A stretch of DNA of 37,645 bases from a virus: IMG/VR virus record IMGVR_UViG_3300013103_001392, positions 1 through 37,645 of that record; one strand, given 5' to 3'. Positions 3,368-29,233 of the stretch are shown in pieces. The notes beneath the pieces are model-generated. The model was not told the origin of the DNA. It saw nothing but the letters and a program-made list of their open reading frames with translations, and did not search any database. Numbering within the stretch: position 1 is the first letter of the stretch; the number at the start of each line of letters is the position of its first letter. The position numbers were made by a program, and so were the translations under genes.

Positions 3368-3369
3368 AA

Positions 3370-3435
3370 CTGTAATCAAAAGCCCTCCTTAAGCGGTCGG
3401 CTCGTGGAGGGCACAGTATTTATGAGCCGACCGCT
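3370..3435. ncRNA. Interleaved-helix (pseudoknot-type) element before the HNH gene
   Basis: Two perfect complementary pairs interleave. Pair a is GCCCTCC at 3382-3388 with GGAGGGC at 3406-3412 (7 bp). Pair b is AGCGGTCGGCTC at 3392-3403 with its complement at 3424-3435 (12 bp). The order a-b-a'-b' defines an H-type pseudoknot or two exclusive hairpins. A flanking 10-bp pairing (3370-3379 with 3447-3456, one G-T) could close it. The GC content far exceeds its surroundings. On the leftward transcript it would be the 5' leader of the HNH gene and the 3' tail of the AAA+ gene. Confidence 0.55.
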
Positions 3436-4205: not shown

Positions 4206-4300
4206 GGATAATTTTAGAACCAAAACATTGGTTCTTTCCTAACTTGTGGGATTTATCCCACTTACAGCGGAAGCATAACCGCATTCAGGAGAAAGAATAT
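4206..4300 (-). ncRNA. Candidate TnpB guide RNA (reRNA/omegaRNA) 3' region
   Basis: In TnpB systems the guide RNA overlaps the 3' end of tnpB and runs through the right end of the element. Here the expected place has two stacked hairpins in the leftward sense: GTGGGAT/ATCCCAC at 4246-4261, inside the last codons, and AGAACCAA/TTGGTTCT with a 4-nt loop at 4216-4235. The spacer would be the roughly 16-20 nt just left of 4206 (leftward sense starting near 4205). The exact boundary is not provable here. Confidence 0.45.
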
Positions 4301-12450: not shown

Positions 12451-13884
12451 GTGGCTTTCTTTGATTTTCTAAAAAAACGAAAAAAGAAGGAAGAAAAAAG
12501 AAGAAATGTTTTAACCTTGGATCAGATGGTTAAGGAATTAGGAGTCGCCAGAGAAGGCGTGATTTCTTCTTATGAGGTTGAAGAGAATCCTGATGATTTA
12601 GGACCTGAGACTTATATTCAAATGCAGAAAAACGATGGAGAAGTTCAGGCAATTGTCAGACTTTTTACTTTGCCGATAATCTCGACCCCTTGTCATATTC
12701 TTCCTGCTAAAGGAGATAAAGGAGAAAGAGATTTTATAGAAACTGTATTCACCGCTCCTCCAAAATTAGGCGGAATGACAACTCCGCTTCCTTTTCTTAT
12801 TGCTGATATGACAAGGGCTATTTTTGAAGGTTTTCGTCTATATGAAAAAGTGGCTAGAATAATTGAAGAAGGAAAATACAAAGGATTTGTTGGCTGGAAA
12901 AAATTAGCTCCAAGAGATGCCAGAACCATTCAATTGAAAGCTGATGAACATGGAGGATTTAACGGAGCAAGACAAGAAGCGTTTTTTGGGGGAAAACAAA
13001 TTTCTGTTGATATTCCTCCTGAAAAGTGCATGCTTTTTACTTTTCAAAAAGAAAAACATTGGCTTTATGGAGAATCTATTCTAAAAACTGCTTTCTATCA
13101 TTATGAGAAAAAACATAAACTTTATTATATTGCTCACAAAAAAGCGGAAATTGAATCTTTAGGTTTAAAGATTTTGCGAATTAATAACACAATGACGCCT
13201 GCTCAAAGAGAAAAAGCAGAAGAAGTAGTTGATACAATAGGAATTAATTCGAGGGTAACCCTGCCTCCGGGCGTTGATTTGGAAATAGAAAGAGGGGGCG
13301 GAGGATATGATCCTTTGCCCTTGATAGAACATCACAATTTAATGATGGCTCGTTCTGCTATTTGTCAAGCTATTGATCAAGTAAAATATGCCTATCCTTA
13401 TGGAAAAGGAACTCCTTCATCTCAATTCTTAATAATGTCCATTGAATCAATCATGAGACAAATGGAAGCTACTCTTAACACTTATGCCGTTGCTCCTTTA
13501 ATAGATTTTAATTTTGGAACTTCTGCCTATCCTCAGATAAAATTTGAGAAAATTTCTGATCCCTCCAAAGAATTTCTGATGAATGTCTTTAATCAAATAA
13601 TGAAAGCAAAAGTTGGACTTCCTAAAGGCTTTATTGATCAAGTTATAGATGAAACAGCAAAGAGTTTGAATCTTAAATGGGCTTTAGAAGAAAAGACAGA
13701 AAATAAAGAGGCTTTAGAAGCTTTTGAAAGAGGAAAACTTGAACAATCTAATAAATTAAGAATAAAAGCTCCTCCAACGCCAAAAAGTCTGAAAGAAAAG
13801 ATTTTAAAGGTTAAAAATACTCCTGAAAACCTAACTCGTTGTTATGAGTTAGGCAAAGAATTTGCTTATGTCGGAGGAAAGTAA
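12451..13884 (+). CDS. Phage portal protein, Mu gp29-like
   Basis: The portal forms the dodecameric ring at the capsid vertex through which DNA is packed and ejected. The 477-aa protein has the Mu gp29/DUF935-like sequence course: an N-terminal basic segment, EVQAIVRLFTLPII, PRDARTIQLK, the stretch P-PEKCMLFTFQKEKHWLYGESIL with AFYHYEKKHKL, and a C-terminal helical region after a GGGGYDPLPLIEHHN loop. The start is GTG 12451, because the same frame has a TAA just upstream and the ATG at 12449 is out of frame. AAAGGAG lies about 20 nt upstream, unusually far. The position before protease and capsid genes fits. No terminase is adjacent. Confidence 0.85.
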   Translation: MAFFDFLKKRKKKEEKRRNVLTLDQMVKELGVAREGVISSYEVEENPDDLGPETYIQMQKNDGEVQAIVRLFTLPIISTPCHILPAKGDKGERDFIETVFTAPPKLGGMTTPLPFLIADMTRAIFEGFRLYEKVARIIEEGKYKGFVGWKKLAPRDARTIQLKADEHGGFNGARQEAFFGGKQISVDIPPEKCMLFTFQKEKHWLYGESILKTAFYHYEKKHKLYYIAHKKAEIESLGLKILRINNTMTPAQREKAEEVVDTIGINSRVTLPPGVDLEIERGGGGYDPLPLIEHHNLMMARSAICQAIDQVKYAYPYGKGTPSSQFLIMSIESIMRQMEATLNTYAVAPLIDFNFGTSAYPQIKFEKISDPSKEFLMNVFNQIMKAKVGLPKGFIDQVIDETAKSLNLKWALEEKTENKEALEAFERGKLEQSNKLRIKAPPTPKSLKEKILKVKNTPENLTRCYELGKEFAYVGGK

Positions 13885-13990
13885 AAATCCTTGGATTTGT
13901 CCCAGGTGCGGTAGAGAAAATAAAGCGGAAAATTCTCATTGTAAGTATTGCGGATGGCCAAAAGACGCAAGAGTTCTTCCAGACGATTAA
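13868..13990 (+). CDS. 40-aa zinc-ribbon protein between portal and polyprotein
   Basis: The frame runs from ATG 13868 to TAA 13988-13990. The start overlaps the portal end by 17 nt, and the next gene starts after one base (TAATATG), so all three are translationally coupled. Residues WICPRCGRENKAENSHCKYCGW form one CxxC…CxxC ribbon. The role is unknown. The position in the head operon suggests a small virion or assembly factor. Confidence 0.65.
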   Translation: MSEESKNPWICPRCGRENKAENSHCKYCGWPKDARVLPDD

Positions 13991-13991
13991 T

Positions 13992-16900
13992 ATGTTAGTT
14001 CCTTCGGATATTCCAGAATTATTAAAGCCAGGAAGAACGACTCCTTTGCCAGGAAGAATTTTAGTGCCTCCTCATGGAAGGCTAATTTGGCAAGGGAAAA
14101 AGAAAGCAATTCTTAGTTCTCGTTTAGACGAAAAATATATTGGCATTCCTGTTTACTTCATTGAAGGAAATAAAGCTTTGGGAATCATGGAGCTGAAAGC
14201 TCCTGAAAAGATTGATTTGAAGGATTTTAAGCGATTAAGGAAAATTCATAGAGTTACAGATGAAGAATATGAAAAATGGTGGAAAGGCAAGAAGTTTCTC
14301 TATTTCTATCCTTTAGAAGTTATTTCCAAATTTGATCCTCCAAAAGAAATTGAACGGCCGAAAGGAGCTCAGGTTTGGCTAAAGGCTGTTACTTTTAAAA
14401 GTCTGGAATTTCTTGATCCAAAAAAATTAACAGATGAAGAACTTCTTCAGGCTCATGAACGATTAAATAAATTTTGGAAAGAAAGATTAGCTTCAGAAGA
14501 AGAACTTATCAATTATAATCTTTTAATCCTTAATGAAATCAAAGAAAGAAAATTGGAAATTCCAGAGACTGAATTAGATAAAGAATCCAAGAGATTTCAA
14601 GAACAATTTAGCAAATCCGGCTTCAAAGTTTATTTTTTTGGAACAAAGGGTCTTGTTGAAGAAGAAGGCCCCGGACATAGATTCCATACAGCAATTCTTT
14701 ATGAATACAAAGGAAAACGTCTATTAGTTGATTATGGAAAAATTAATCAAGGAAATTTAGATAAGATAAAGCCTGATTATATCCTTACTTCACATAGTCA
14801 TCCCGACCATTTATTAGGCTTAAGAGATATGTCTGTTATTGTCTCAGAAGATACGGAGAAAGAAATCCCTAATCTTTATAAAGATTTTAACATCGATACT
14901 CGAGCACGATATAAATCTTATGAAACTTTCCAACTTGGTCCTTTTAAAATAACTCCGATTCCTGTTTTACATTCCATTCGAGCCAAAATGCACGTCTTTC
15001 TTATTGAAATGGGAGATAAACGAGTTCTTCAGGCAACAGATATTCTTGGCTGGCATAGTGGAGATAGAGAAAAGTATATCAAGAACTTAGATTTAGCTAT
15101 TATTGATGGTTCTTCCTTTTCAAAAACTCTAGCTAGAAGAAAAGGAAAAGAAGGAGAGCCTTATGGCCATGCAAGTATCGTCACTCAATTGAAAAATTGG
15201 TATAAACCTGAAAATGTTAAAAGAATAATTATCACTCATTTGGGCAAAGAGCCTTTGGAGATGGGAGATGAAGAATTGTTAAGAAAAGCCAAAGAAATAA
15301 CAAATGTTCCAATCGCTGTTGCAACTGATGAAACTATAATTAATCTAAGCGAAGATTTTGCTCCAATCTATACTTCTGGGAAAGTCTTGGGAAGAAGAGT
15401 ATCTCTTGAGGAAATTCTTCCTTATTTCAAAGATTTTCTAATTCAGAGACCGATCTGTTATTTAACCGGTGGAATAGTGAACCAAGGTTCAACTACGGGA
15501 GATATAGATCTCTTACTTCCTGATTGGCTAAGTTTTGATATGAGAAGGATAATAGAATTCAGAATAGCCAGAAGTGTTCCTTGGTGGATTAGAAGAAGAC
15601 TTCATTTTGTCTATGATCGCTTTGCTACTCCTTTCACAAACGCTTTGCCACTTTATAATTTAGCAATGTTAAGAAGCGAAGATGAAATTTTGAGACTTTC
15701 TGAAGTTTCTAAACAGTTACGGGAAAAGCCAAGAATTGAAAGCGCTATCAAAGACGCTGAGGCTTCAGCAAGAGAAGATAAGATAAAATTATTTAGATAT
15801 TTTCTTCCTCTAAAGCCAACCAGAGGATATTATCCAGAAAGAAGGCAAACCATTGATTTGTTTATTGAAGTAATGGAGGAAATGGGAGATTATCCGTTTT
15901 ATTCAACCAAAAAATACGATGGTTTTCATGTGGAAGTTCATAAAAAGGGAGATCGAGTTAAGATATTTTCCGAAGATGGAGAAGTTGTAACTTCTCGCTT
16001 GCCGAATGTTATAAAGGAAATTCAAGCCCTAAGCAAGGAAGATCTAGTCTTAATGGCAGAACTTGAAATTTGGCGAGACGGAAAACATTATCCAAGAGAA
16101 GTAGCGGCTGGCTATATGCATCAGAAGGGAACTCCCGATGATTCTGATGTTGTCTTGAATGTTTACGATTTACCTTACTTCAAAGAAGATATTCATAATA
16201 AGCCGTTTGAGAAACGATTAAAATTACTTGAATCTTTGCCTTTCAAACAAAGAACATGGAAGATTCCGAATACGAAAATAAAATTGAATTTTGCCCCTTA
16301 TCTTCTTTCAAAAAATAGAGAAGAATTAAGAAGACACACAGAGTTTTTAAGACGACTTCCCGGTTCGGAGGGTAATGTTTGTAAAACAAGAGATTTTATT
16401 TACAACTTAAAGGGAATTCGTTCTGGAATGGTCAAATTTCATAACTCAACTGTCGTTTATGGAAAAGTTCTTAGAGTGAAGGAAACAAAAGTCAAAGGAG
16501 TATTTAATTATTATTTTGGGCTCGAAAAAGGCGACATTAATGCGAAAGTAGAAGAATTAGAGAATCGATTTTATCATCGGGTTGGGAGAACATTCTCTAC
16601 TTCTTTGAAAGCGAAGGTTGGTGATGTTTTAGAAATTGAAGGAGAAACATTGAATGTTGAACATAATCTAAAAGATAACTCTTATAAGCTAAGTCTTTGG
16701 GCTCCGAGGGTGATGAAGAAAGTTGATAGAAAGCCAGATACGATAAAAGAAGCTATTGAAAGAGCGAAGAAAAATTTCTGCTTACAAGAAAAAGAAATTA
16801 CTGAAGAAGGAAAGATTATTTACTTATCAGAAATAGAAAAACTTCATTTAGAACAATTTCGAGCAGAAGGAATTGATGAAGATCTTGCTCATCCCAAAGA

Positions 16901-19900
16901 ACGTTATAAAGAACTGATTGCGGATCTTCGTTATCTGGGAAATTCTGCCTTCCCCAGATTGAAAAGTGGAAAAAGATGGGGAGAATGGATGCTTGAAGAT
17001 GTCTTGAAATATTTTGCAAAGATTGTTGATACTCTAAGAGGAATTTATTTCCCAATTCTTCCTCCTAAGAAGGGAAGTAAAGAATATTCTTCTTCCTACT
17101 GGCGGTGTTATCGCGAATCAGAGAAATATATGAGAAGCAAGCCTCCGAAAGAAAGCGAAATTAAGGATTGGGAAAAGAAACGCAAGGAATGGATGAAAAA
17201 AATTGAAAAAGGTTTCTTCCCTTATTTTGGAGGATTGAAACGTTTTAAAAACATCATTTTGCAATACTTCCCAGAGCATAAACGCTATATTGAAATTTTT
17301 GGAGGAAAGGGAGAAATGATTTGGGAAAAAGAGCCAAGTGAGGAAGAAATTTATAATGATAAAGATGAAGTTCTAGTAAAACTTTTTAGAATTTTAAAAA
17401 GACTAAGCTCTTCTGACTTAGTTAGACTTTCAAAGTTTAATTGGATTGGAGGGAGAGAATATTTTGAAAGTTTAAAACGGAAAAAACCAAAAAATGATTT
17501 AGAATTTTTTCATAAATGGATTTATATCCATAAATTCGGCAAACATCATGCTCAGCCAGATAAAGATGATTTTAACGAATTGATGACCGGGAAAAATATT
17601 TGGGCTAATTTGAAAAGAGAAATTGAGAAAAGTCAAGAACGTATAAAGAATGTGAAAATTTTTAATAAGGATTGGAGTGATGTTCTAGAAGAATTTGATT
17701 CTAAAGATACATTTATCTTTGCAGATCCTCCTTATCCCGGAAGAGAAATTTACTATAGGATTGCTGATATAGATTGGGAAAAATTATGGAAAAAGTTCTC
17801 AGATGCAAAGTCTAAAATTCTTATGATCTACATGAAGAATATTGATGAAGGAATTGACGAGAGAATCAAACCATTTTTCAAAAACTGGCATGTTAAGAGA
17901 TTTCGAGTCAGAAAATTGATCTCTCATTGGCATCCTAATATTCCGAAATATTTCTATTTCTATCTTATTGCTAATTATCCTTTGCAAAAATCTAAGATAG
18001 AAAAACAATCCGATCCTTATTTAGAATATCCAAGGCCAGAAAAGCCAAGAGAATATGTTATACAAAGACATTTCAGAGGCAAAAGTGTCTCAGATAGAAC
18101 TCCTATTATTATAAGAGAGAATGGGAAGGTAAAAATAGTTCCTATTCAAAATCTTTTTACTTATCAAGAAAGAAATATGACTCTGTGTGAAAAGAAGCTA
18201 AATGGAATTGAAATTTGGACTAAGAATGGTTGGTCAAAATTAAAAGGAGTAACAAGGCATCGTCAAGATTCACCAATTGTTAGATTGGTAACAATGGAAG
18301 GATTTTTAGAAACAACAAAAGATCATTCGGTTTTCACCCCAGATGGAAAAGCAATTGCGGTTTCTGAATTAAAAGAAGGAGATAGAATCGAACTAATTGA
18401 TCTTCCAAAATTGCAAGGAAATCAAGATGTTGATAAAGAAATTGCTTGGCTTTATGGTTTTTATCTAGCAGAAGGTTCAAAACGAAAGAATAGAGGAATA
18501 GTCATTTCGAATTCTAAAAGGGAACTATTAGAAAAGTGTCGAAAAATAGCTAATAAACTGGGATTGAAGTCGCATATTTATCCAGATAAGAATAATTGGA
18601 AGATAGAAATAAATTGGAATATTGGACCTATTTTTGAGGTTAGCGGATGTCATGAGGTAAAAGAACGTTTAGCTCGTTGGAAAGTGGTTCCTTCATGTGT
18701 TTTCTCTTGGAATAAGGAAAGTCAGAAAGCTTTTTTAGAAGGCTATTTCGCAGGAGATGGGATTAATATTTCAGAAAAGCACATTGAGTGGGCTAGTTCT
18801 TCTCAGAGTGTTGCTCAAGGAATTCTTGTCTTAGCTAAAAATCTTTATAATTTTCCTTATTTCAGAATTCTTCTTCAAAACGATGACAAGAGTGATGTTT
18901 ATCGAATCGTCTTAGCTAAAGAGCATAATCTATTACAGAAAGAAAGAAATGTTTTGAAGAAAATAATAAAGGCAAAGTCTTTGGATGGAGTGGGAGAGAA
19001 AAATAATAACTTCAGAACTGGAAAATATGTAAGTAAAAATCAAGAAGAATTTTTCATCTATTCTAAAAGAAGATGGGTCTATGATGTAGAGACAGAAAAT
19101 CATGATTTCCTAGCTGGAATAGGAAGAATTCGAGCACATAATAGCCATCATTTAGATCTAAGAATAAAACACAATGATTATCTAATTGGCTGGACTATCG
19201 CTGATGCTGTAAAAGGGAAGCCTGGAAAACCAATAACAACATTAGAGCAGGCTAAGGCATTAGATCAAAATGAGATTTCAAAAATAGATTGGAAAAAGGG
19301 GGTTCCTAAACTAAGACCTGGAATAAAGCCTGGATTTAAAGAAAAGTATGCAGAACTTGCTGCAATGAGGAAAAGTCCTGAGCCAGTTCCTTGGCTGAAT
19401 GTTGAAGGAGTTGTTCCTAAGGGTTCTGTAGGAGCAACGAAACAATTTCCAGGCGTATTTCATATAATCGATAAAGGATATTGTGAGTTCGGAGCTTTAA
19501 AGCCCTACTTTTGTGAATATTTTTTTTCTAAAGGCAAACTTAAAGGCAGATGGTTTTTTAGACAGTTAAGGCCTTCTGAATTTCGAGGAACAACAAAGAA
19601 AGCAAACGAAATAATTCCTCCATCCAGAGAAACAGAATTTAGACAAGAAGCTGCTTGGTTTTTCATTAAGCCTATTGATGAAACTCCATATGTAATTTCT
19701 GATGCTGCTGTTGAGAAGAAATGGATTCCCCCTTATGGGATTTCTGCTTTGCCAGAAAAGATTAGAAAGAAGATTCCTAAAGAATTTCAGTATTGGAAAG
19801 AAAAAGATGAGAAGAAACGAATAGAAATTCGAGATAAACTTGTAAAAGAATTAGCAGAGAAATTAATTGAAAAGCGTTTAACTCCTGGAATGCGTTGGGC

Positions 19901-20717
19901 TAAAGCTGCTTATCGTTATGTTTTGTCAAAACAAGTTATGACATTTTGGCGTCGAACTCCCCTTCCGGGCAAGATTAAGAGAGTGCAAGAGGCTCTTAAC
20001 GACTTTTTGAAACTACATCCTTTAAAGAAAGAATGGATAGGAGATGCAATCAAATGGTTGGAATCAAGACCAAATGAAATGAAAGAACTTATTGCTCAAG
20101 AACTTCGTTTGAAAAAGAGCAGAGAAATCAGGTGGGTTTTACAACATCACTGGTGGCGTGGACAAAAAGTAATCAGAGCTGGGGCATCAAGAGAACATTG
20201 GGATTTGCGTCTAGATTTCCCTTCTAGAGAAGGATTAATGCATTTTGTTCTAATGCAGAATCCTTTGAAAAATAAAGAAGTTACAGCAATTTTAAAACCT
20301 TGTAAATATAAAGAATGGATGAATTTTTCTGGCTATATCCCTCCCGAGAATGAAAGAAAGAAGATGTCGAAAGAAGAACTAGCAAAATTCCCACCCGGAA
20401 TTGAAGAAGCCAATCCGACTAAAGAAACAAGCTGCTTTATGGAGATTTTAGATAAGGGAAAAGCAATTGTTTATGAGGATGGAGATTTATTCAAAAAATT
20501 TGAATTTAAAGGCAATAAATTAAAAGGACTTTGGGTATTTATAAGAGAGAATACAAGCAGTTTTTGGATTATGAAGAAGAGTTCTCTTCCGAAAACAGAA
20601 AAAATCTTAAGAATTCATGAAAATTGTAAGTATTTTGAGAATGGATATTGTAAATTGAAAGAAAAACAAGTTGATCCTAAAGCTCCAGCTTGTCCTAAAT
20701 TCGAGTCCAAAGAGTAA
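13992..20717 (+). CDS. 2241-aa multi-enzyme DNA-processing protein (ASCH-like, MBL, NTase-like, ligase, D12 methylase, two LigD-PE domains, intein)
   Basis: Domains in order: ASCH/PUA-like (about 15-115); metallo-beta-lactamase with HSHPDH at 268-273; nucleotidyltransferase-like GSTTGDID at 499-506; ATP-dependent DNA ligase with KYDG at 641-644 (Lys641 the adenylated candidate), AELEIW (689-694) and a GMVK motif V, then an OB-like region ending WAPRV; D12-class adenine methylase with FFPYFGG (1075-1081) and DPPY (1245-1248); LigD-type 3'-phosphoesterase (EYVIQRH…HHLDLR) split by an intein at 1365-1717; a helical linker; a second phosphoesterase copy with WVLQHH and EHWDLRLD (about 2047-2075); and a four-cysteine tail. 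All key residues I can place are present. It occupies the MuF slot between portal and protease. Cleavage into parts by the phage protease is possible. Confidence 0.8.
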   Translation: MLVPSDIPELLKPGRTTPLPGRILVPPHGRLIWQGKKKAILSSRLDEKYIGIPVYFIEGNKALGIMELKAPEKIDLKDFKRLRKIHRVTDEEYEKWWKGKKFLYFYPLEVISKFDPPKEIERPKGAQVWLKAVTFKSLEFLDPKKLTDEELLQAHERLNKFWKERLASEEELINYNLLILNEIKERKLEIPETELDKESKRFQEQFSKSGFKVYFFGTKGLVEEEGPGHRFHTAILYEYKGKRLLVDYGKINQGNLDKIKPDYILTSHSHPDHLLGLRDMSVIVSEDTEKEIPNLYKDFNIDTRARYKSYETFQLGPFKITPIPVLHSIRAKMHVFLIEMGDKRVLQATDILGWHSGDREKYIKNLDLAIIDGSSFSKTLARRKGKEGEPYGHASIVTQLKNWYKPENVKRIIITHLGKEPLEMGDEELLRKAKEITNVPIAVATDETIINLSEDFAPIYTSGKVLGRRVSLEEILPYFKDFLIQRPICYLTGGIVNQGSTTGDIDLLLPDWLSFDMRRIIEFRIARSVPWWIRRRLHFVYDRFATPFTNALPLYNLAMLRSEDEILRLSEVSKQLREKPRIESAIKDAEASAREDKIKLFRYFLPLKPTRGYYPERRQTIDLFIEVMEEMGDYPFYSTKKYDGFHVEVHKKGDRVKIFSEDGEVVTSRLPNVIKEIQALSKEDLVLMAELEIWRDGKHYPREVAAGYMHQKGTPDDSDVVLNVYDLPYFKEDIHNKPFEKRLKLLESLPFKQRTWKIPNTKIKLNFAPYLLSKNREELRRHTEFLRRLPGSEGNVCKTRDFIYNLKGIRSGMVKFHNSTVVYGKVLRVKETKVKGVFNYYFGLEKGDINAKVEELENRFYHRVGRTFSTSLKAKVGDVLEIEGETLNVEHNLKDNSYKLSLWAPRVMKKVDRKPDTIKEAIERAKKNFCLQEKEITEEGKIIYLSEIEKLHLEQFRAEGIDEDLAHPKERYKELIADLRYLGNSAFPRLKSGKRWGEWMLEDVLKYFAKIVDTLRGIYFPILPPKKGSKEYSSSYWRCYRESEKYMRSKPPKESEIKDWEKKRKEWMKKIEKGFFPYFGGLKRFKNIILQYFPEHKRYIEIFGGKGEMIWEKEPSEEEIYNDKDEVLVKLFRILKRLSSSDLVRLSKFNWIGGREYFESLKRKKPKNDLEFFHKWIYIHKFGKHHAQPDKDDFNELMTGKNIWANLKREIEKSQERIKNVKIFNKDWSDVLEEFDSKDTFIFADPPYPGREIYYRIADIDWEKLWKKFSDAKSKILMIYMKNIDEGIDERIKPFFKNWHVKRFRVRKLISHWHPNIPKYFYFYLIANYPLQKSKIEKQSDPYLEYPRPEKPREYVIQRHFRGKSVSDRTPIIIRENGKVKIVPIQNLFTYQERNMTLCEKKLNGIEIWTKNGWSKLKGVTRHRQDSPIVRLVTMEGFLETTKDHSVFTPDGKAIAVSELKEGDRIELIDLPKLQGNQDVDKEIAWLYGFYLAEGSKRKNRGIVISNSKRELLEKCRKIANKLGLKSHIYPDKNNWKIEINWNIGPIFEVSGCHEVKERLARWKVVPSCVFSWNKESQKAFLEGYFAGDGINISEKHIEWASSSQSVAQGILVLAKNLYNFPYFRILLQNDDKSDVYRIVLAKEHNLLQKERNVLKKIIKAKSLDGVGEKNNNFRTGKYVSKNQEEFFIYSKRRWVYDVETENHDFLAGIGRIRAHNSHHLDLRIKHNDYLIGWTIADAVKGKPGKPITTLEQAKALDQNEISKIDWKKGVPKLRPGIKPGFKEKYAELAAMRKSPEPVPWLNVEGVVPKGSVGATKQFPGVFHIIDKGYCEFGALKPYFCEYFFSKGKLKGRWFFRQLRPSEFRGTTKKANEIIPPSRETEFRQEAAWFFIKPIDETPYVISDAAVEKKWIPPYGISALPEKIRKKIPKEFQYWKEKDEKKRIEIRDKLVKELAEKLIEKRLTPGMRWAKAAYRYVLSKQVMTFWRRTPLPGKIKRVQEALNDFLKLHPLKKEWIGDAIKWLESRPNEMKELIAQELRLKKSREIRWVLQHHWWRGQKVIRAGASREHWDLRLDFPSREGLMHFVLMQNPLKNKEVTAILKPCKYKEWMNFSGYIPPENERKKMSKEELAKFPPGIEEANPTKETSCFMEILDKGKAIVYEDGDLFKKFEFKGNKLKGLWVFIRENTSSFWIMKKSSLPKTEKILRIHENCKYFENGYCKLKEKQVDPKAPACPKFESKE
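18084..19142 (+). mobile_element. LAGLIDADG intein inside the first phosphoesterase domain
   Basis: The 353-residue insertion runs from Ser1365 to Asn1717 of the host protein. Block A is SVSDRTPIIIR and block B is TKDH (1442-1445). Block C/E-type LAGLIDADG motifs are LYGFYLAEG (1487-1495) and FLEGYFAGDG (1581-1590). Block F/G is VYDVETENHDFLAG…IRAHN, followed by Ser1718 as +1 residue. Splicing would rejoin HFRGK to SHHLDLR, restoring the conserved phosphoesterase motif. Nucleophile Ser1, penultimate His and terminal Asn are all present, so splicing should work. The homing endonuclease retains both motifs with the catalytic acidic residues. Confidence 0.88.
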
Positions 20718-20729
20718 TTACTTGACCCT

Positions 20730-23150
20730 ATGGAGAGTCTATATAAAATAAAATTTAGATTCCCGTTATGTTTGAGTGAGAAAGATAGGGGAGATTTCAT
20801 ACTAGAAGGATTTGCTGCAGCAAATGATTTTGATTTCCAGAATGATATAATTTCTGATCGTGCTTTGAAGCGAGCAGCGAAGAAATTTGCGAAACGAGGG
20901 AAATTTTGTCTAAATCATACGGAAAAAGAGATTGGAAAGATTTTAGATTGTAAATTCAAGAACGGAAAAATTTGGATTAAAGCGAAGGTCACAGATCCTG
21001 AAATAATTGAGAAAATCAAATCGGGAGAGCTCAACTCACTCTCGGTAAAAGGAGTAGTGGATTTTCGAAAAGTTGAGCGAGTATTTTCTCCCGAGTTAAA
21101 TTTAACTTTAAAGGTCGTTACGGATTTGGATCTTGAGGAAGTTTCTTTAGTTCCTCAGGGTGCAAATCCAGAAGCTAAAGCGATTCGATGGTATATTTCA
21201 AAAGCCATCGATTCGACAGAAAAAATCATGAAAGAAGAATTAGAAAAGGACTTTGAGAATTTATCTGAAGAAAAAGGAGAAGAAATTCTGGAAGAAGCCG
21301 AGGAAGAAGTTAAAACAGAGGATGAAGAAAAAGAAACAGAGGAAGAAACAGAAGAAACAGAAGCAGAAGATACAGAAAAGACAGAAAACGAAGAAACAAA
21401 AGAAACAGAAGATGTTGAGAAAGAAGAAGAATCCAAAGATGAAGAAACTCAAGAAGAAAAGAATACAGAACTTTCTGAGATATTTGTTGAGAAATCTGCT
21501 TATACACGATGTATGGCTAAAGAATTGAAAAAAGGCACTCCATTTAAAGAAGCTGCTAAGATTTGTAGCGAGAAAGCGAAGAAAACAGAGAAAATGTTAA
21601 GAATTGAAAAATCAGCTTATACAGAATGTATGAAACGGGAGATGAAGGCTGGGAAAACAATGGCAGAAGCAGCCAAGATTTGTAGAGAAGAAACCAAGGA
21701 AACGAAAGAGAAGGGGAAATATCCTTCAGCATATCCTTATCCTGAAGGATATTCCAGAGCTTATGGATATCCTTATGGCTATCCATACGGATATCCTTAT
21801 GGCTATCCTTATCGCTATCCTCGTTTAAGAAAGAATGGAGGAGGCGGAGCAATAGATATAATCAAAGAAGCTTTGGATAAACTGATCAAAGAGGTAAAAG
21901 ACGAAAAGATTCTTGAGCGTTTAAAAGAAATTCGAGAAATGGTTGGCAAATTAAGAAGACTTGGACAACTCTATCCTTCAGTCTATCCTTATCCTGAAAC
22001 GAAAAAAGAACTTTCTGAAAAAGAAGAAAAGATTATATATCAAGTAATCAATTCTGGAAGAGTTGATTTGAGTGAAGGGGCTCGATTTAAAAAAGAATTA
22101 CTGAGAGTTGGAAGATGGTTTCATGGAGCTAGTAAAAACGGAGTTCTTGAAGTAACAAAAGATTTCTTGAAAAAGATTGTGAAGAACTTTAAGGATAGAG
22201 TTATTGATAATGTCTTCGTGCCATTAGGACATCCTGTAGGAGATGATCCATCTAAGAATGTTGGAGAAGTAATAGATTTACAGGCTACAGATGATGGAAA
22301 GCTGATTGCTGAAATTGAAGTGAAAGACGAAAAAGTAGCAGAAAAGATTAAAAAAGGTTTAATCAAGGGAATTTCTGCAAGTATTGCAGAAAATTACATT
22401 CGAAAAGATACTGGAGAAGAAGTTGGTCCCGTCTTATTCCATGCTGCTTTGGTTAGCGAGCCATACATTAAAGGAATGGCTGGATTTGTTCCTTTGTCAG
22501 AACTAACTGAAGGCAGTTTGATAATTCCAATTCTTAATATGGAACCTCCCTTGACCCTAGATGAGTTAACAGATAGAATAAAGAAGTTAGAAAGAAAGAT
22601 TGAACTTGCTGAAGTTACTGAAGAAACAGAGAAAGTTTCGAAAGAAGAAACTTCTTCAGTCGAAGAATCCAAAGAGGAGGAATCCAAGTCTTCCGAAGGC
22701 AGCGAAGAGGCTGCGGAGGAAGAGAAGGAATCCAAATCAGAGGAATCTGAGACTGAAGAAGAATCAGCCGAAGCCGAAAAAGAAATAAGCTTGGCTGAGG
22801 CTGAAAGAATGTATGAAGAATTGCTTAGAGAAGGAAAAGTGACTCCCGCCGAGAAGGAATTTCTTATTCCTTTACTTACCTCGAATGAGGAAATTCAACT
22901 TTCAGAAAATAAAAAGGTCGCTTCTGGAAGAGCTCTCTTTGAGTATTTAAAGAGACAATCTCCTAAATTCTCATTAAGTGAAGATGGAACGTCAGCAGTC
23001 CCGGATAAAGAACAAAAAGAAGAGAAAGAAATCCCGAAAGAGATCGATGAAATTTTGGAGAAGATGGATTTCAGCGATCCTGAAGATAAAAAAGCTATTT
23101 ACGAAGAATTCAAAAAGAATTTAGGAGAAAGTCGATCAACTCCTTTTTAG
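20730..23150 (+). CDS. Fusion of two prohead proteases and scaffold
   Basis: The N-terminal domain (about 1-150) looks like an XkdF/HK97-type prohead protease: AAANDFDFQNDIIS, LNH at 61-63 (His63), LNSLSVKG (Ser103 or Ser105), LEEVSLVPQGANPEA. A Glu-rich region follows, then two copies of a SAYTxCM…EAAKIC motif (about 256 and 300), then YPYG repeats (about 333-365). A second protease domain (about 450-610) resembles Mu protease I, with PLGHP (His about 501) and KGISASIAENY (Ser about 548). The C-terminus is acidic and helical, like a scaffold. The protein is 806 aa, about twice the usual protease-scaffold length. It would mature the prohead and remove the scaffold. It starts 12 nt after the 2241-aa gene. 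Confidence 0.78.
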   Translation: MESLYKIKFRFPLCLSEKDRGDFILEGFAAANDFDFQNDIISDRALKRAAKKFAKRGKFCLNHTEKEIGKILDCKFKNGKIWIKAKVTDPEIIEKIKSGELNSLSVKGVVDFRKVERVFSPELNLTLKVVTDLDLEEVSLVPQGANPEAKAIRWYISKAIDSTEKIMKEELEKDFENLSEEKGEEILEEAEEEVKTEDEEKETEEETEETEAEDTEKTENEETKETEDVEKEEESKDEETQEEKNTELSEIFVEKSAYTRCMAKELKKGTPFKEAAKICSEKAKKTEKMLRIEKSAYTECMKREMKAGKTMAEAAKICREETKETKEKGKYPSAYPYPEGYSRAYGYPYGYPYGYPYGYPYRYPRLRKNGGGGAIDIIKEALDKLIKEVKDEKILERLKEIREMVGKLRRLGQLYPSVYPYPETKKELSEKEEKIIYQVINSGRVDLSEGARFKKELLRVGRWFHGASKNGVLEVTKDFLKKIVKNFKDRVIDNVFVPLGHPVGDDPSKNVGEVIDLQATDDGKLIAEIEVKDEKVAEKIKKGLIKGISASIAENYIRKDTGEEVGPVLFHAALVSEPYIKGMAGFVPLSELTEGSLIIPILNMEPPLTLDELTDRIKKLERKIELAEVTEETEKVSKEETSSVEESKEEESKSSEGSEEAAEEEKESKSEESETEEESAEAEKEISLAEAERMYEELLREGKVTPAEKEFLIPLLTSNEEIQLSENKKVASGRALFEYLKRQSPKFSLSEDGTSAVPDKEQKEEKEIPKEIDEILEKMDFSDPEDKKAIYEEFKKNLGESRSTPF
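21762..21820 (+). repeat. In-frame YPYG tandem repeat
   Basis: An imperfect 12-bp unit (TATCCTTATGGC-like) repeats about five times and encodes GYPYGYPYGYPYGYPYRYP. Codon choice varies between units (CCTTAT, CCATAC), so the peptide repeat is being maintained rather than freshly slipped. The role is unknown; Tyr/Pro/Gly repeats give flexible, sticky linkers, here between the two protease domains. Confidence 0.75.
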
Positions 23151-23159
23151 AGTCAAACA

Positions 23160-23591
23160 ATGTCAGCTCTAACAGATAACTACGAAGCTAAACGCCAAGA
23201 CGGAGAGATAATTGAATTCCCAGTTAAGGCCTCAACCACGATTTATAAAGGTGCTCTTGTGGCGATTGATACATCAACAGGATATGCTGTTCCAGCTTCT
23301 GATGCCGCTAATCGTATCTTTGTTGGAGTCGCTGTTGAAAAGGCTGATAATTCAAGTGGAAGCAATGGAGATAAGAAAGTAAGAGTCTTTAGAACTGGAA
23401 CCTTCCAATTTAATTGCTCTAGTGCTGCTCAAACTTGGGTTGGAAAGAAAGTTTATGCTGTAGATGATAATACCGTTGCTTTGGCAGCTACTACATCAAA
23501 TGATGTCTTTGTGGGTGTAGTTGTTTCTTACGAGAGCTCAACTAAAGTGAAAGTTGCTATTGATGGAGCAGCTTTCACTGGAACTGACTAA
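23160..23591 (+). CDS. Capsid decoration (cement) protein, DUF2190-like
   Basis: The 143-aa protein has the small beta-barrel pattern of DUF2190/gpD-like head decoration proteins: STTIYKGALVAIDTSTGYAVPA, RIFVGVAVEKADN, KVRVFRTGTFQF, VGKKVYAVDDNTVALA, FVGVVVSY. It would bind the expanded capsid as a trimeric cement. ATG 23160 is 9 nt after the protease stop, and the capsid gene starts one base after its own stop (TAATATG). Length and gene order fit. Confidence 0.82.
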   Translation: MSALTDNYEAKRQDGEIIEFPVKASTTIYKGALVAIDTSTGYAVPASDAANRIFVGVAVEKADNSSGSNGDKKVRVFRTGTFQFNCSSAAQTWVGKKVYAVDDNTVALAATTSNDVFVGVVVSYESSTKVKVAIDGAAFTGTD

Positions 23592-23592
23592 T

Positions 23593-24531
23593 ATGCTAGT
23601 AAAAACAGATATTCCAAAATTATTAGAAGCTGGAATCAGGAGAGAGTTCATGAAAGAATTTGAACGGAAAGAAGCAGAATGGGAAAGGATTGCTATTCGA
23701 ATTAATTCAACAAAGGATTCAGAAACTTATGCTTGGCTTGGTTCTGTAGGAGATTTGCATGAATGGAAAGATGAAAGAATTCCCGAAGCTCTTTATGAGC
23801 ACTCTTATTCAATCAAAAATCTCGACTGGGAAGCCTCAATTGCTATAAGCAGAAATGCTATTGAAGATGAACAGTATGGACAGATCAAATTGAAAGTTCG
23901 TCAATTGGCTAATAGGGCTCGAAGATTCTGGGGAAAACAAGTATTCAAGATTCTCTCGCAAGGAAATCTTTCTACAGGAGATTCAGGAATTTATAATGGG
24001 AAGGATTTGAAATGTTATGATGGACAGCCCTTCTTCTCGGATTCTCACTCTGAGGGAGATTCAGGAACGCAATCTAATAAAGGAACTGTTGCTCTGACTT
24101 ATTCGAACTTACAGACTGCCATTCAGACAATGATGGGAATCAAAGATGATAAAGGAGAAGAATTGGATATTCGTCCCGATTTGTTGGTTGTTAATCAGAA
24201 GAACATGTTTGTAGCGAGAGAAATCTTGAATAGCACTTACTATCCAGAAGAAGGAACAACTACTGCCAAATTGGCAACGAATGTCTTAAAGGGATTATTG
24301 GATTTATATGTTACTCCTTATGTTGATGCGAATGATTGGTTTGTCTTTGATACTTCTGGTATTATTAAACCCGTAATCTTGCAAGTCAGAAAGGATATTG
24401 AGTTCTCAAGCTTATTGACTGGTCCAGAAGCATTCTTAAGAAAGAAACTTTACTTTGGTGTAGATTGGCGAGGAATGATTGGTTGGGGTCTCTGGCAATA
24501 CGCTTACGGTTCCTCTCCTGATTGGGCATAA
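23593..24531 (+). CDS. Major capsid protein, Mu gpT-like
   Basis: The 312-aa capsid protein resembles Mu gpT: AWLGSVGDLHEWKDERIP, an IKNLDWEASIAISRNAIEDEQYG arm, CYDGQPFFSDSH (the family's typical 'DGQxFF..DH'), then LLVVNQKNMFVAREIL and FLRKKLYFGVDWRGMIGWGLW at the end. ATG 23593 immediately follows the decoration stop; upstream in-frame codons to 23554 overlap that gene and are less likely. It is the last gene before the structured leader and the glycan module. Maturation by the upstream protease is expected, but a cleavage site is not evident. Confidence 0.85.
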   Translation: MLVKTDIPKLLEAGIRREFMKEFERKEAEWERIAIRINSTKDSETYAWLGSVGDLHEWKDERIPEALYEHSYSIKNLDWEASIAISRNAIEDEQYGQIKLKVRQLANRARRFWGKQVFKILSQGNLSTGDSGIYNGKDLKCYDGQPFFSDSHSEGDSGTQSNKGTVALTYSNLQTAIQTMMGIKDDKGEELDIRPDLLVVNQKNMFVAREILNSTYYPEEGTTTAKLATNVLKGLLDLYVTPYVDANDWFVFDTSGIIKPVILQVRKDIEFSSLLTGPEAFLRKKLYFGVDWRGMIGWGLWQYAYGSSPDWA

Positions 24532-24561: not shown

Positions 24562-24672
24562 TTCTATCACGGGGAGAGCTTGATCCCTTGCCAAGCTCGA
24601 TGATCCGTGATAGAATGGAGAGGCAGGGATTCTAGAGTTGGAGATTTGAGCCTCTCCAGAATCTCCAACTCT
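24562..24672 (+). ncRNA. Structured leader: nested hairpin plus interleaved helices
   Basis: The element lies between the capsid gene and the first sugar gene. Hairpin 1: 24562-24572/24605-24615 (11 bp) enclosing 24576-24582/24592-24598 (7 bp). Then two perfect interleaved helices: a, 24617-24624/24650-24657 (8 bp), and b, 24634-24646/24660-24672 (13 bp), in order a-b-a'-b'. The connecting loops are 9, 3 and 2 nt. The ATG at 24679 starts 6 nt after the last paired base, so the structure would cover the initiation region. No U-tract follows. Pseudoknot or switch controlling read-through or translation is inferred. Confidence 0.65.
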
Positions 24673-24678
24673 TCTATT

Positions 24679-25647
24679 ATGAAAAAAGAGATTCCATTCC
24701 AATATAATAAGGAATATTTCAAATCAATTTCAGATGCCTATAAAAAGACGGCGAAGAAAATAAGTAAAATTCGTTGGGATTTTGTTAAATTTATAAAACC
24801 AAAAGTAGTTCTTGATTATGGAGCGGGAGCAAATTTTCTAACTAAATTTGCCCCAACAGGAATCATTGTTGATTCTTTCGATATTGGAAAATATCCCGTT
24901 AAATATACAGGAATCAGGCATAAATTTTATGACCTGATTTTTTTATGTGATGTTTTGGAACATATTCCCGATTTTAGGATTTTAGATAAATTATTTAAAA
25001 AGACGAAATATATTTATGTTTCTGTTCCTCTTTTGCCGAAAAATAAATCTTTAAAGAAATGGAAACATTTTAAATTCGAAACAGGTGAACATCTTCATTT
25101 TTTCACAGAAAGAAGTTTGGATTTATTTTTCGAAGCTCGAGGCTTTAAACGAATCAAAAGTGGATATCCAGAATGTGAAATAAGAGAAGATATATACTCA
25201 GCTGTTTATAAGAAAGAAACTGTGGTTTTTACTAACGGAATTTTTGATCTTCTTCATATTGGTCATATCAAATTGCTAAAAGAAGCTAAACGTTTAGGAG
25301 ATTTTTTAATAGTTGGATTAAATTCCGATACTTCTGCCACAAAAATCAAAAGAAAGCCTATAAAAGACGAAAATCAAAGAAAAGCAATTCTAGAGGCTAT
25401 TGAATATGTTGATAAGGTAATAATATTTAGAGAAACTACTCCACTTCGTTTGATAAAGAGAATAAAACCTGATATTTTGGTGAAAGGAGGAGATTATAGC
25501 AGAGAAACTATTGTGGGACATGAATTTGTTGAAAGTTATGGAGGAAAAGTTGTTGTTATTCCCTTACTGAAAGGGTATTCAACAACAAAATTAATTGAAA
25601 ATATAAAAGGTCGCTCCTTTAAAACCGAAACAAGGAGGAAAAGATGA
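24679..25647 (+). CDS. Methyltransferase fused to a heptose-phosphate nucleotidyltransferase (HldE C-domain-like)
   Basis: Residues about 1-175 form a class I SAM methyltransferase-like domain (VVLDYGAGANFLTKF, then FYDLIFLCDVLEHIPDF). Residues about 180-315 are a cytidylyltransferase-fold domain of the RfaE2/HldE type: FTNGIFDLLHIGHIKLLKEA with HIGH at 193-196, GLNSDTSATKIKRK, PDILVKGGDY and GGKVVVIPLLKGYSTTKLI. In the known pathway this domain joins heptose-1-phosphate to ATP to give ADP-heptose. ATG 24679 is preferred because the longer frame would translate the structured leader. The next gene, its usual kinase partner, overlaps by 4 nt and has a strong AGGAGG site. The fused methyltransferase is unusual. 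Confidence 0.8.
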   Translation: MKKEIPFQYNKEYFKSISDAYKKTAKKISKIRWDFVKFIKPKVVLDYGAGANFLTKFAPTGIIVDSFDIGKYPVKYTGIRHKFYDLIFLCDVLEHIPDFRILDKLFKKTKYIYVSVPLLPKNKSLKKWKHFKFETGEHLHFFTERSLDLFFEARGFKRIKSGYPECEIREDIYSAVYKKETVVFTNGIFDLLHIGHIKLLKEAKRLGDFLIVGLNSDTSATKIKRKPIKDENQRKAILEAIEYVDKVIIFRETTPLRLIKRIKPDILVKGGDYSRETIVGHEFVESYGGKVVVIPLLKGYSTTKLIENIKGRSFKTETRRKR

Positions 25648-26423
25648 GAAAGAAAGTGGCAATAGTAGGAGATAGCTTCATAGATGTTTATATCTTTGGC
25701 AGAGTTGAAAGATTATCACCAGAAGCTCCGGTTCCTGTTTTGGATGTTACCCACAAGGAAGAAAGAGGAGGAGGAGCGATGAATGTTGCTAATAATTTAT
25801 ATGCTTTGGGGATTGAGCCAGTCTTGTTCACGATTTCTGATATGGAATGTCCTTATAAGGTGATTAGTCCTAAGAATTGCACTTCCTTGAAAAAGACTAG
25901 ATTCATTGGTAATGGATTTCAGTTATTAAGAGTTGATGAACCCCCTCGTTATTTGAAAGAAGATCTTGAAAGAGCAATTTATCCAGATCCTGATGAATTT
26001 GATTTGATCGCAATTGTTGATTATGATAAAGGATTAATAAAGGGCGGGAAAGCAACTATTGTAGATTCGAAAAAATCCGATTTAGATGTCTTTGAGGGGA
26101 GTGAATATCTCAAGGTTAATGAAAGAGAATTTCAGAAGGCTGTTGGAAAGGAAGTCTTTAAGAAAATATTCGTAACTAAAGGAAGTGAGGGAATAAGTTA
26201 TTATGAAGACGGAGAATGGAAATTTGATGAGCCCACAGACGCAAAGGAAGTTATAGATGTCACGGGGGCTGGAGATACCGTTATGGCTGTAATGATATAT
26301 TGTTTAATTAATGGAATAACCGATCCAAGAGAGATGATGCGATTGGCTAACAAAGCAGCAGGCATTGTTGTAAGCAAATTCGGGACTTCGGTTGTGAGTA
26401 AAGAAGAGCTTTTCGCACAATGA
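25644..26423 (+). CDS. PfkB-family heptose-7-phosphate kinase (HldE N-domain-like)
   Basis: This is a ribokinase-fold sugar kinase with the RfaE1-type signature VERLSPEAPVPVLDV, the GGGAMNVANNL nucleoside-sugar loop and the catalytic DVTGAGDTVMAVM (about residues 205-217), where the second Asp is the base. In the heptose pathway it phosphorylates heptose-7-phosphate at C1. At 259 aa it is shorter than the usual about 310-330, mainly in the middle. ATG 25644 overlaps the upstream gene by 4 nt (ATGA), with AGGAGG 8 nt upstream, one of the few clear Shine-Dalgarno sites here. An AAAAGGTC motif also lies at 25606-25613, on the same strand. Confidence 0.82.
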   Translation: MRKKVAIVGDSFIDVYIFGRVERLSPEAPVPVLDVTHKEERGGGAMNVANNLYALGIEPVLFTISDMECPYKVISPKNCTSLKKTRFIGNGFQLLRVDEPPRYLKEDLERAIYPDPDEFDLIAIVDYDKGLIKGGKATIVDSKKSDLDVFEGSEYLKVNEREFQKAVGKEVFKKIFVTKGSEGISYYEDGEWKFDEPTDAKEVIDVTGAGDTVMAVMIYCLINGITDPREMMRLANKAAGIVVSKFGTSVVSKEELFAQ

Positions 26424-27040
26424 AAAAGGTTAAGAAAATTTGGGGTCAAGAATTATGGATAGTAAATAGAGACTATTGTGGAAAAATCTTATTCCTGAAA
26501 GAGGGCTTTTCTTCTAGCTTGCATAAGCACAAAATAAAAGATGAGACTTTTTATATCATTAGAGGAAATGTTTTGATGGAGATAGAAGGAAAACAAAAAA
26601 TAATGAAGCCCGGAGATTTTGTAAGAATTCCTCCGAATACCTGGCACAGATTTAGCGGATTAACTAGTGCGGAGATTGCTGAGTTCTCCACACATCATAG
26701 GGATTCAGATACGACAAGAAGAATAAAATCAGGAAGGAGTAAATTGAAAGTTGCTTATGATTTTGATGGGGTTGCAGATAAAATCAAGTTAAAGCCTAAT
26801 GCTCCGATAATTACTGGAAGAAGTTATGAAGAAATCGAAAAGATTCCTTCCAGTATTCGGTTAAAACATCCTATTTATTTTAATCCTGTGCCCATTATAG
26901 AAAAGACAAGAAAGAGTGAAATAAAATGGAAAGCTAAGATGATAAATTTGTTAGGAATAGAACTTTATTACGAGGATACTCCTGAAATTATTGTTGAACT
27001 AAGAAAGCGTTGCCGAAATTGTTATATAGTTAAAGTTTAA
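26420..27040 (+). CDS. Cupin fused to a HAD-like domain
   Basis: Residues 1-105 are a cupin: FLKEGFSSSLHKHKIKDETFYIIRGNVLMEI followed by GDFVRIPPNTWHRF, with the metal-binding histidines and glutamate visible. This resembles sugar-nucleotide-associated cupins of the phosphomannose-isomerase type. Residues about 110-206 begin VAYDFDGVADKI, with Asp114 and Asp116 in the HAD motif I position, then ITGRSYEE and a final YYEDTPEIIVELRKRC. The place between kinase and epimerase suggests it supplies the phosphatase step (GmhB analogue) or a sugar isomerase, but neither is proved. It overlaps the kinase stop by 4 nt. Confidence 0.65.
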   Translation: MKKVKKIWGQELWIVNRDYCGKILFLKEGFSSSLHKHKIKDETFYIIRGNVLMEIEGKQKIMKPGDFVRIPPNTWHRFSGLTSAEIAEFSTHHRDSDTTRRIKSGRSKLKVAYDFDGVADKIKLKPNAPIITGRSYEEIEKIPSSIRLKHPIYFNPVPIIEKTRKSEIKWKAKMINLLGIELYYEDTPEIIVELRKRCRNCYIVKV

Positions 27041-27067
27041 AGGAGGAGAAGAATTTCTTCTCCTCCT
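27041..27067 (+). terminator. Perfect intergenic hairpin after the cupin-HAD gene
   Basis: AGGAGGAGAAG at 27041-27051 pairs with 27057-27067 (11 bp) around an AATTT loop. It begins on the base after the TAA stop and ends 8 nt before the next ATG. No U-tract follows, so intrinsic termination is doubtful; it could be an RNA-stability or processing hairpin. The AGGAGGAG arm would itself be masked as a Shine-Dalgarno site. Confidence 0.45.
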
Positions 27068-27075
27068 ATCAAATT

Positions 27076-27870
27076 ATGAAGAAACGAATTTTCATAACTG
27101 GAGGATACGGATTTATAGGTTCAAATCTGGTCGATTTTCTCAAAGATAAATATGATCTAACATTATGGGATAAAGATATTTGTGAAGGGATTCCCATAAA
27201 AAATAATTTCGATTTTATTTTTCATTTAGCGGCTAATACCGATTCGAGATTCCCTGATGATATTGAAATGTATCGCAATAACATATTAGGCTTTTTAGAG
27301 ATTCTCAAATTTGCTCTCAAGGGAAAGAGTAAACTGATTTATGCTTCGAGTGCAGCTGTTTATGGATGTAAATCTAAGGAAATAATTAACGCTTATGCTC
27401 ATTCTAAGATGATAATAGATGAAATCGCAGAAGAATTTTTCGGAAAATTGAAAATAGTTGGATTACGTCCTTTTAACTGCTTCGGAAAAGGAGAATTAAT
27501 GAAAGGCAAAAATGCTAGTATTATCACTCAGTGGCGAGAACAAATACTTTCAGGAAAACGGCCGGTGATTTTTAAAGGAAATTACAAACGAGATTTTATC
27601 TATATCAAAGATGTTGTTCGAGGATTTGAACAAGCAATGAAACTTCCCAATGGAATTTATGATTTAGGAAGCGGAGTCGCGACAGATTTTCGGGAAGTTC
27701 TCAAAATAGTTATAGAAACACTAGGAATATCCGTAAAGCCTAAATTTGTTAAAAATCCCTACGAAGGAAGTTATCAGGAATATACAAAGGCCGATATTTC
27801 TTGGGGCTTCAAGCCTCGATTTACATTAAAAGAAGCAATCAAAGACTATTTCTTAAATGAAGCTGTTTGA
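27076..27870 (+). CDS. NAD-dependent sugar epimerase/dehydratase (extended SDR)
   Basis: The nucleotide-binding GGYGFIGSN is at residues 9-17, FHLAANTDSR follows, then SSAAVYG and the catalytic YAHSK (Tyr107, Lys111). The substrate-binding RPFNCFGKGE and DFIYIKDVVRG segments are typical of NDP-sugar epimerases. At 264 aa it is slightly short for the family (about 310-340). In this cluster HldD-type epimerisation of ADP-heptose is the attractive role, but GDP- or UDP-sugar substrates cannot be excluded. It overlaps the next gene by 14 nt. Confidence 0.82.
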   Translation: MKKRIFITGGYGFIGSNLVDFLKDKYDLTLWDKDICEGIPIKNNFDFIFHLAANTDSRFPDDIEMYRNNILGFLEILKFALKGKSKLIYASSAAVYGCKSKEIINAYAHSKMIIDEIAEEFFGKLKIVGLRPFNCFGKGELMKGKNASIITQWREQILSGKRPVIFKGNYKRDFIYIKDVVRGFEQAMKLPNGIYDLGSGVATDFREVLKIVIETLGISVKPKFVKNPYEGSYQEYTKADISWGFKPRFTLKEAIKDYFLNEAV

Positions 27871-28177
27871 ATTATTTTCTCTATTCTTCTTTCACTTTTT
27901 AGCTGATTTCTGTTTTCAGCCGGAGTGGATGGGAAAGATGAAAATAAGAGACCCTTTTACATTAATAGCTCATTGCTTTGTTTGGGCAGGTTTTTTGAGT
28001 TTTGTCTTGATTTATTTCTTTGATTTTGCTATTTGGAAATTTTTCTTCTTATTCTTGGGTCATCTTTTTTGTGATTATTCAAAACATAAATTTTATCATA
28101 AGTTACCGTTTCATCTTAAGAATTTAATCGATCAAACTTTTCATTTCTTTCAATTAATAATCGTATGTTTCCTTTAA
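27857..28177 (+). CDS. DUF3307-like integral membrane protein
   Basis: The 106-aa protein is very hydrophobic and aromatic, with about three membrane helices: LFELFSLFFFHFLADFCFQP, LIAHCFVWAGFLSFVLIYFF and FFFLFLGHLFCDYSK. The FLADFCFQPEWM string matches the DUF3307 signature 'FLADFxLQTxWM'. Members occur in phages and bacteria without a known function. It overlaps the epimerase by 14 nt and the following glycosyltransferase by 13 nt, so it is co-expressed with the glycan genes. Confidence 0.7.
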   Translation: MKLFELFSLFFFHFLADFCFQPEWMGKMKIRDPFTLIAHCFVWAGFLSFVLIYFFDFAIWKFFFLFLGHLFCDYSKHKFYHKLPFHLKNLIDQTFHFFQLIIVCFL

Positions 28178-29232: not shown

Positions 29233-29233
29233 A

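Follow-up and report, generated by a model that had tools for sequence, protein, structure and literature searches.

Gene order and reality of the giant ORF

The stretch of DNA analyzed here, hereafter the window, is the whole of IMG/VR virus record IMGVR_UViG_3300013103_001392 (37,645 nt). It carries one giant open reading frame (ORF) on the plus strand, stop-free over 2241 codons, with head genes on both sides (Table 1). An earlier note, made from the sequence alone, described a single ORF that joins several DNA-acting enzymes and lies between the portal and prohead protease genes. On translation the frame is open throughout, Pfam places the ligase, D12, metallo-beta-lactamase (MBL), and second phosphoesterase (PE2) domains in this one chain, and PHROG matches identify both neighbors. 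The motif residues that the note gave are exact for HSHPDH (268–273), KYDG (641–644), and DPPY (1245–1248), and the two PE motifs are found as it read them, i.e. HHLDLR at 1719–1724 and EHWDLRLD at 2068–2075. It overlooked a 353-aa intein (residues 1365–1717) in the first PE (PE1) and, close to the N-terminus, an ASCH-like domain.

A chimeric assembly of the core was considered and rejected, because four other contigs from three samples (L002, L005, L006, and L007) carry the same portal–giant–protease–decoration–capsid order. The giant itself shows no sign of MuF; a MuF-like C-terminus is seen only in ANMV-1, where the gene after the ligase gene (L003:5862–9368) encodes a cysteine-rich protein of 1168 aa whose C-terminal segment is MuF-like (head morphogenesis).

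Table 1. Features of the giant ORF and of its neighbors in the window
Feature	Position	Strand	Evidence or remark
Portal gene, directly upstream of giant ORF	12451–13884	+	PHROG 113 portal, 9.6e-33
Giant enzyme ORF	13992–20717	+	2241 aa; ~1888 aa after intein removal
Capsid-like leader MLVPSDIPELLKPG	13992–14033	+	Resembles capsid protein N-terminus
Leader, ASCH-like domain, and helical repeat (aa 1–200)	13992–14591	+	In many family records
MBL fold (aa 201–455)	14592–15356	+	Lactamase_B_2 PF12706, 7e-9, residues 260–416
Pol-beta-type nucleotidyltransferase (NTase) motif GG-x9-DID (aa 456–600)	15357–15791	+	Putative, from motif
ATP-dependent DNA ligase adenylation domain, Lys641 (aa 601–820)	15792–16451	+	Pfam 625–816, 1.8e-16
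Ligase OB-fold domain (aa 821–945)	16452–16826	+	Ligase matches reach across OB
D12-class adenine methylase insertion (aa 1061–1335)	17172–17996	+	Pfam 1078–1251, 3e-9; PHROG 13242, 7.7e-32
PE1 N-extein, ending ...QRHFRGK (aa 1336–1364)	17997–18083	+	Aligned to intein-free relatives
Intein with LAGLIDADG endonuclease, S1365 to N1717, +1 Ser	18084–19142	+	LAGLIDADG_3, 4.8e-15
PE1 C-extein, SHHLDLR... (aa 1718–1880)	19143–19631	+	PE1 model of L005 resembles LigD PE
Conserved linker module TPYVISDAAVEKKWIPP (aa 1881–2040)	19632–20111	+	48/48 records
PE2 with EHWDLRLD, ending in a Cys-rich tail (aa 2041–2241)	20112–20714	+	LigD_N 2065–2185
Prohead protease gene, directly downstream of giant ORF	20730–23150	+	PHROG 976, 1.5e-14, plus others
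Head decoration-like gene	23160–23591	+	PHROG 1731, 2.2e-33
Major capsid protein gene	23593–24531	+	PHROG 371, 9e-64; N-terminus MLVKTDIPKLLEAG

Several other features of the window were recorded. The protease product (806 aa) matches head maturation proteases in two regions (14–322 and 472–774), which suggests 2 fused protease-like domains. Directly after the capsid gene, positions 24607–31899 hold heptose adenylyltransferase-like, epimerase, UDP-glucose dehydrogenase-like, and cupin genes, which suggests that the structural operon contains a glycan module. Between 9001 and 11191, about five short repeats ending in ACCCGCCCACCGCTT, or in something close to it, are found near where small minus-strand genes begin and are possibly regulatory, and minus-strand TnpB-like (Cas12f1-like TNB, OrfB) and HNH endonuclease genes occupy 4239–5363 and 2585–3379, respectively.

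Distribution and composition of the family

The earlier note had suggested looking for the same architecture beside portals in metagenomic phages. With PE alignments as queries, IMG/VR and GTDB genomes yielded 48 representative records with the PE core, drawn from IMG/VR contigs, archaeal metagenome-assembled genome (MAG) contigs, and the ANMV-1 virus. Local profiles label PE1, the linker, and PE2 in all 48, the evidence for PE2 being weak in two short MAG contigs (L012 and L013). The ligase is present in 42 of the 48 records, the NTase in 34, the MBL in 13, and the D12 in 7, while an ASCH-type N-terminal domain occurs in at most 26, some of these matches being spurious helical segments. A unique status of the protein is not supported, given that ANMV-1 (KP703175, 2015) has a ligase–PE–PE protein adjoining its portal and that there are dozens of relatives. 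In the literature searched for this architecture, ANMV-1 is the only relevant record found, and its ligase goes unmentioned in the main text of the 2015 paper.

Among 50,697 phage records the core is found only in ANMV-1, other matches being lone ligases, D12 domains, or short stretches, and a PE1 search of plasmids found none. IMG/VR gave no match to an NTase–ligase alignment or to L017 as query; PE-based alignments worked. Across 393 genomes of the phylum of the Archaeoglobales MAG, only a handful have PE1–linker–PE2, and stand-alone PE2-like proteins of ~130–200 aa are common. A third PE-like copy follows PE2 in thermophile relatives (e.g. L015, L017, and L084).

All host-binned records belong to archaea (MAG contigs of Methanosarcinales, Archaeoglobales, Geothermarchaeota, and Thermoprotei) and ANMV-1 comes from ANME archaea; these hosts are those of the window's relatives. 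Judged by sequence, the PE1–linker–PE2 core, the ligase, and the location in the head module place the window in an archaeal viral family of the ANMV-1 type.

Within the window's clade the D12 domain is found in this contig only, L002, L005, and L006 being without it, and it is inserted between a helical module and PE1, with a GC content of 0.30 vs 0.33–0.37 elsewhere. Six further records have an N-terminal D12 in the ligase gene, and this is an independent gain, D12 having been acquired at least twice. Methylation falls outside the core, as an accessory that a minority of records gained. Its repeated acquisition would fit a counter-defence role, in which an enzyme that is either delivered or expressed early mends the breaks and 3'-phosphate ends left by host restriction or nicking systems, D12 methylation protects sites, and the MBL or PE might also degrade nucleotide alarms. 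The T4 internal proteins of defence type, with their common capsid targeting sequence, are a parallel (PMC3012670). However, what is conserved in the family is the ligase plus PE and not the methylase or the MBL (13/48), and we regard this role as improbable.

Conservation of the catalytic sites

Catalytic residues of PE1, the ligase, and the NTase are nearly invariant despite 20–40% overall identity. For the ligase, motifs I, III, IV, and V are present, their K, E, EG-K, and K residues are invariant in 19 aligned sequences, and KxDG is found in 41 of 42 ligases (the one exception is a fragment). An AlphaFold model of ligase plus OB matches DNA ligases with Z ~25. Residues G37, D48, and D50 of the NTase are invariant in 19/19 aligned sequences, and its DxD is found in 34/34. 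The third NTase carboxylate, as read from the alignment, is not conserved, so polymerase activity is doubtful, and the NTase part of the model is of moderate confidence. Besides HSHPDH, the MBL domain carries further His/Asp/His motifs. The ASCH assignment includes a PF04266 match in the homologue L005 (E 0.0044, below the cut-off).

The PE1 model of L005 matches 3p43 with Z 14.3 over 123 residues, and AlphaFold PE1 matches archaeal and Pseudomonas LigD PE domains with Z 10–14 over ~120 residues. H27, H34, D36, and R38 of PE1 are invariant in 35 aligned sequences, and the His-His-Asp-Arg set occurs in 45/48 records, the exceptions being ANMV-1 and L012, where it is changed, and L089, where it is cut off. 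Residues of the LigD His84/Tyr88 type are not recognizable in PE1 on our reading of the alignment, so PE activity may differ.

The Pfam LigD_N match of PE2 (2.5e-5) is below the Pfam cut-off, and the PE2 family profile matches 3p4h and 3p43 at ~5e-8. A structure search with the PE1–PE2 model gave a high Z for PE1 alone, with PE2 matching unrelated folds only (Z ~4). The HxDxR site of PE2 is kept in 35/48 records, including the window, and lost in 13/48. Fold prediction, proposed in the earlier note as a check, bears out PE1 and the ligase, which match LigD PE and DNA ligases; PE2 is assigned to LigD PE by sequence profiles.

Inteins in active sites

The window intein has readable blocks (S1365...TTKDH...LYGFYLAEG...HN/S1718) and shows the splice junctions, TxxH block, and LAGLIDADG motifs by which inteins are recognized. 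It splits the PE1 active site, because it is placed between RHFRGK and SHHLDLR. L002, L005, and L006 are intein-free at this site, and the intein that L002 does have is a different one, placed ~120 residues downstream within this PE domain. The distant relative L070 has an intein at the window's PE1 site with a similar start (SVSDRTPIVI). Family-wide there are about ten inteins in catalytic motifs of the ligase, NTase, and PE1, an unusual intein density for active sites. Their junctions lie in PE1 (window, L070, and L002), in the ligase beside the lysine motif (L039 and L074) or in motif V (L070 and L092), in the TWMFP motif of the OB domain (L083), and in the NTase (L069 and L073).

Inteins favor conserved active sites of important enzymes, and given this preference the active-site inteins support a functional enzyme; those in the ligase, NTase, and PE1 motifs point to active, conserved enzymes. 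Large size, a place in the head operon, and the loss of the PE2 HxDxR site in 13/48 records are what one would expect if the giant were a structural head protein built of decayed enzyme domains. Against this stand the near-invariance of the PE1, ligase, and NTase residues and the targeting of active sites by inteins, which leave the decayed-protein reading very improbable.

In L005, the capsid gene (12632–14530) is itself broken after about codon 51 by an insert with a LAGLIDADG ORF (12853–13695), probably a self-splicing intron.

Association with the head module

Portal HMMs identify the gene directly upstream as a portal in 14 records; in 5 others, one or two small genes separate the portal from the enzyme gene downstream of it. 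These portals belong to three PHROG groups (113, 12, and 146). A prohead protease is downstream of the enzyme or fused to it in at least 35/48 records. Enzyme–protease fusions are found in three records (L010, L016, and L063), the fused protease of L063 being XkdF (PF14550, 1.3e-24), and an ASCH-type domain is fused to the portal in L061 and L064. For the thermophile clade, neither profile comparison nor PHROGs gives the upstream gene any portal similarity, so this clade shows only the protease–capsid side of the neighborhood.

A further link to the head is the leader. The window giant starts with MLVPSDIPELLKPG and the capsid protein with MLVKTDIPKLLEAG, and this pair ranks first among 496 N-terminal pairs of the window and first among 10,261 15-mers, with none of 200,000 shuffles reaching its score. 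The same mimicry is seen in L002, L005, and L006. The capsid N-terminus of the thermophile clade differs from that of the window (e.g. TTTDITAILPKII), and with a matrix trained on ten such capsid N-termini alone, giant-family proteins take the first eight places, and nine of the first ten, among the non-training ORFs in a set of 1076. The matches either begin the ORF or fall between its MBL and ASCH domains, the leader being internal (after the MBL) in several members; a lower match elsewhere in the L091 ORF is probably chance. Capsids retrieved later from held-out contigs carry an N-terminal motif of this kind as well. Leader–capsid pairs from the same lineage score higher than permuted pairs (P = 0.006, by a permutation that ignores shared ancestry), and cross-clade leader scores are low. 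Leader mimicry was not seen in the ANME-clade members and L010 that were tested. Two contigs, L088 and L092 (107 and 128 kb), each carry a pair of distinct HK97-type capsid genes whose N-terminal leaders are alike.

The arrangement found, i.e. a short leader common to a head protein and near the maturation protease, is like that of the T4 capsid targeting sequence. We read the leader as a putative targeting or protease-recognition signal. The leader mimicry and the protease fusions are independent sequence support for a predicted head association.

Two other accounts of this neighborhood have to be weighed. In the first, the enzyme is an ordinary late cytoplasmic repair or recombination enzyme of archaeal viruses, and head location and leader are accidents of gene shuffling. 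In a repeat search, the giant and capsid genes resemble each other in the DNA at their starts, and because the similarity reaches the DNA level the leader could be left over from recombination between the two starts, i.e. a scar; the ANME-clade members without mimicry fit the same account. It sits badly with an enzyme whose location stays the same although portals and capsids of several families surround it, with three protease fusions, and with a second, sequence-different leader–capsid pairing in the distant thermophile clade, and we hold it to be rather unlikely. In the second, the procapsid or portal recruits the enzyme at packaging, and there it seals nicks and cleans ends against motor stalling, and is not delivered onward. 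Portal and protease adjacency and the capsid leader agree with such a role, as does the block that nicks and gaps impose on T4 packaging of short DNA (PMC3012670). Packaging-time repair alone, however, leaves the end-processing by PE plus MBL unexplained, and a helper needed only transiently would not usually be so large a chain; we consider this account unlikely.

Comparison with known systems

Like LigD, the enzyme of bacterial Ku-dependent nonhomologous end joining (NHEJ), the giant has an ATP-dependent ligase and a 3'-phosphoesterase in one chain. LigD has a primase–polymerase (POL, AEP), whereas the giant carries a Pol-beta-type NTase motif instead, and no AEP/POL domain is found in it among Pfam or NCBIfam matches up to E 1. 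It also differs from LigD in having two PE copies and in being virus-encoded in a head module. Ku (PF02735) is absent from 12 records including the window, which are possibly incomplete (a B. subtilis control was positive). Going by sequence, the giant is LigD-like in its predicted chemistry, and by domain content it is not LigD.

A close known protein is the ANMV-1 ligase (AJP62006.1, KP703175), which is ~33% identical, shares the NTase–ligase–OB–PE1–PE2 core, and is encoded directly after a portal gene that is annotated as a MutT-like hydrolase. Unlike the giant, it is without ASCH, MBL, D12, and intein, has lost the PE1 Arg and the PE2 HxD, and is annotated merely as an ATP-dependent DNA ligase. 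Archaeal stand-alone 3'-phosphoesterases (3p43, 3p4h, and 5dmp) have the same PE fold as PE1 but are single-domain cellular proteins of 120–170 aa.

Mycobacteriophage Ku, together with host LigD, has been proposed to circularize the linear phage genome. There the phage brings Ku and borrows LigD from its host, whereas here the virus encodes ligase and PE, and Ku was not found.

For the leader, the T4 capsid targeting sequence is the closest precedent by analogy. It is a 10-residue propeptide that steers internal proteins into the head (PMC9026906), and these are diverse defence proteins with the sequence in common (PMC3012670). In both cases a short leader is proposed to bring a nonstructural protein into the procapsid beside the maturation protease. 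The T4 leader is an internal-protein propeptide, whereas that of the giant copies the capsid N-terminus and, as far as genes tell, is carried by a giant DNA-repair enzyme.

A proposed role in healing and sealing viral DNA

Given these data, we propose with even confidence that the giant is a head-associated, virus-encoded DNA end-healing and end-sealing enzyme that would act on the viral genome, either during packaging or once injected. Its catalysis and head location are read from sequence, structure models, and synteny, and build on domains, conservation, gene order, and leader similarity that are observed directly. The earlier note had proposed a DNA end-cleaning, sealing, and methylating machine; LigD-like end processing and sealing tied to the head module are retained, and methylation is kept as an accessory outside the core.

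In this model, the intein would excise itself from PE1 to leave a mature chain of ~1888 aa that joins an MBL-type phosphodiesterase/nuclease, a Pol-beta-type NTase, the ligase with its OB domain, and two LigD-type PEs. The leader shared with the capsid, or a protease fusion in other viruses, would bring the enzyme into the procapsid, much as the T4 capsid targeting sequence does. Its substrate would be the linear viral genome, most likely ends or nicks after delivery into the archaeal cell. There, PE would remove blocked 3' ends, the MBL and NTase would trim or fill them, and the ligase would seal, with genome circularization or repair without Ku as the outcome. In the virus of the window, the inserted D12 may additionally mark DNA.

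End joining of the NHEJ type is rare in archaea (PMC7719229). It is a tentative proposal, held with somewhat less than even confidence, that widespread archaeal tailed viruses pack a Ku-free end-joining enzyme by means of the capsid's own leader and deliver it with the genome for healing and circularization. We know of no virus whose particle was shown to bring a ligase together with enzymes for end healing into an archaeal cell. If true, the proposal would add both a packaging principle and a viral end-joining system that are new, and capsid-leader mimicry could give a peptide tag for loading enzymes into the HK97-fold shells of thermophiles.
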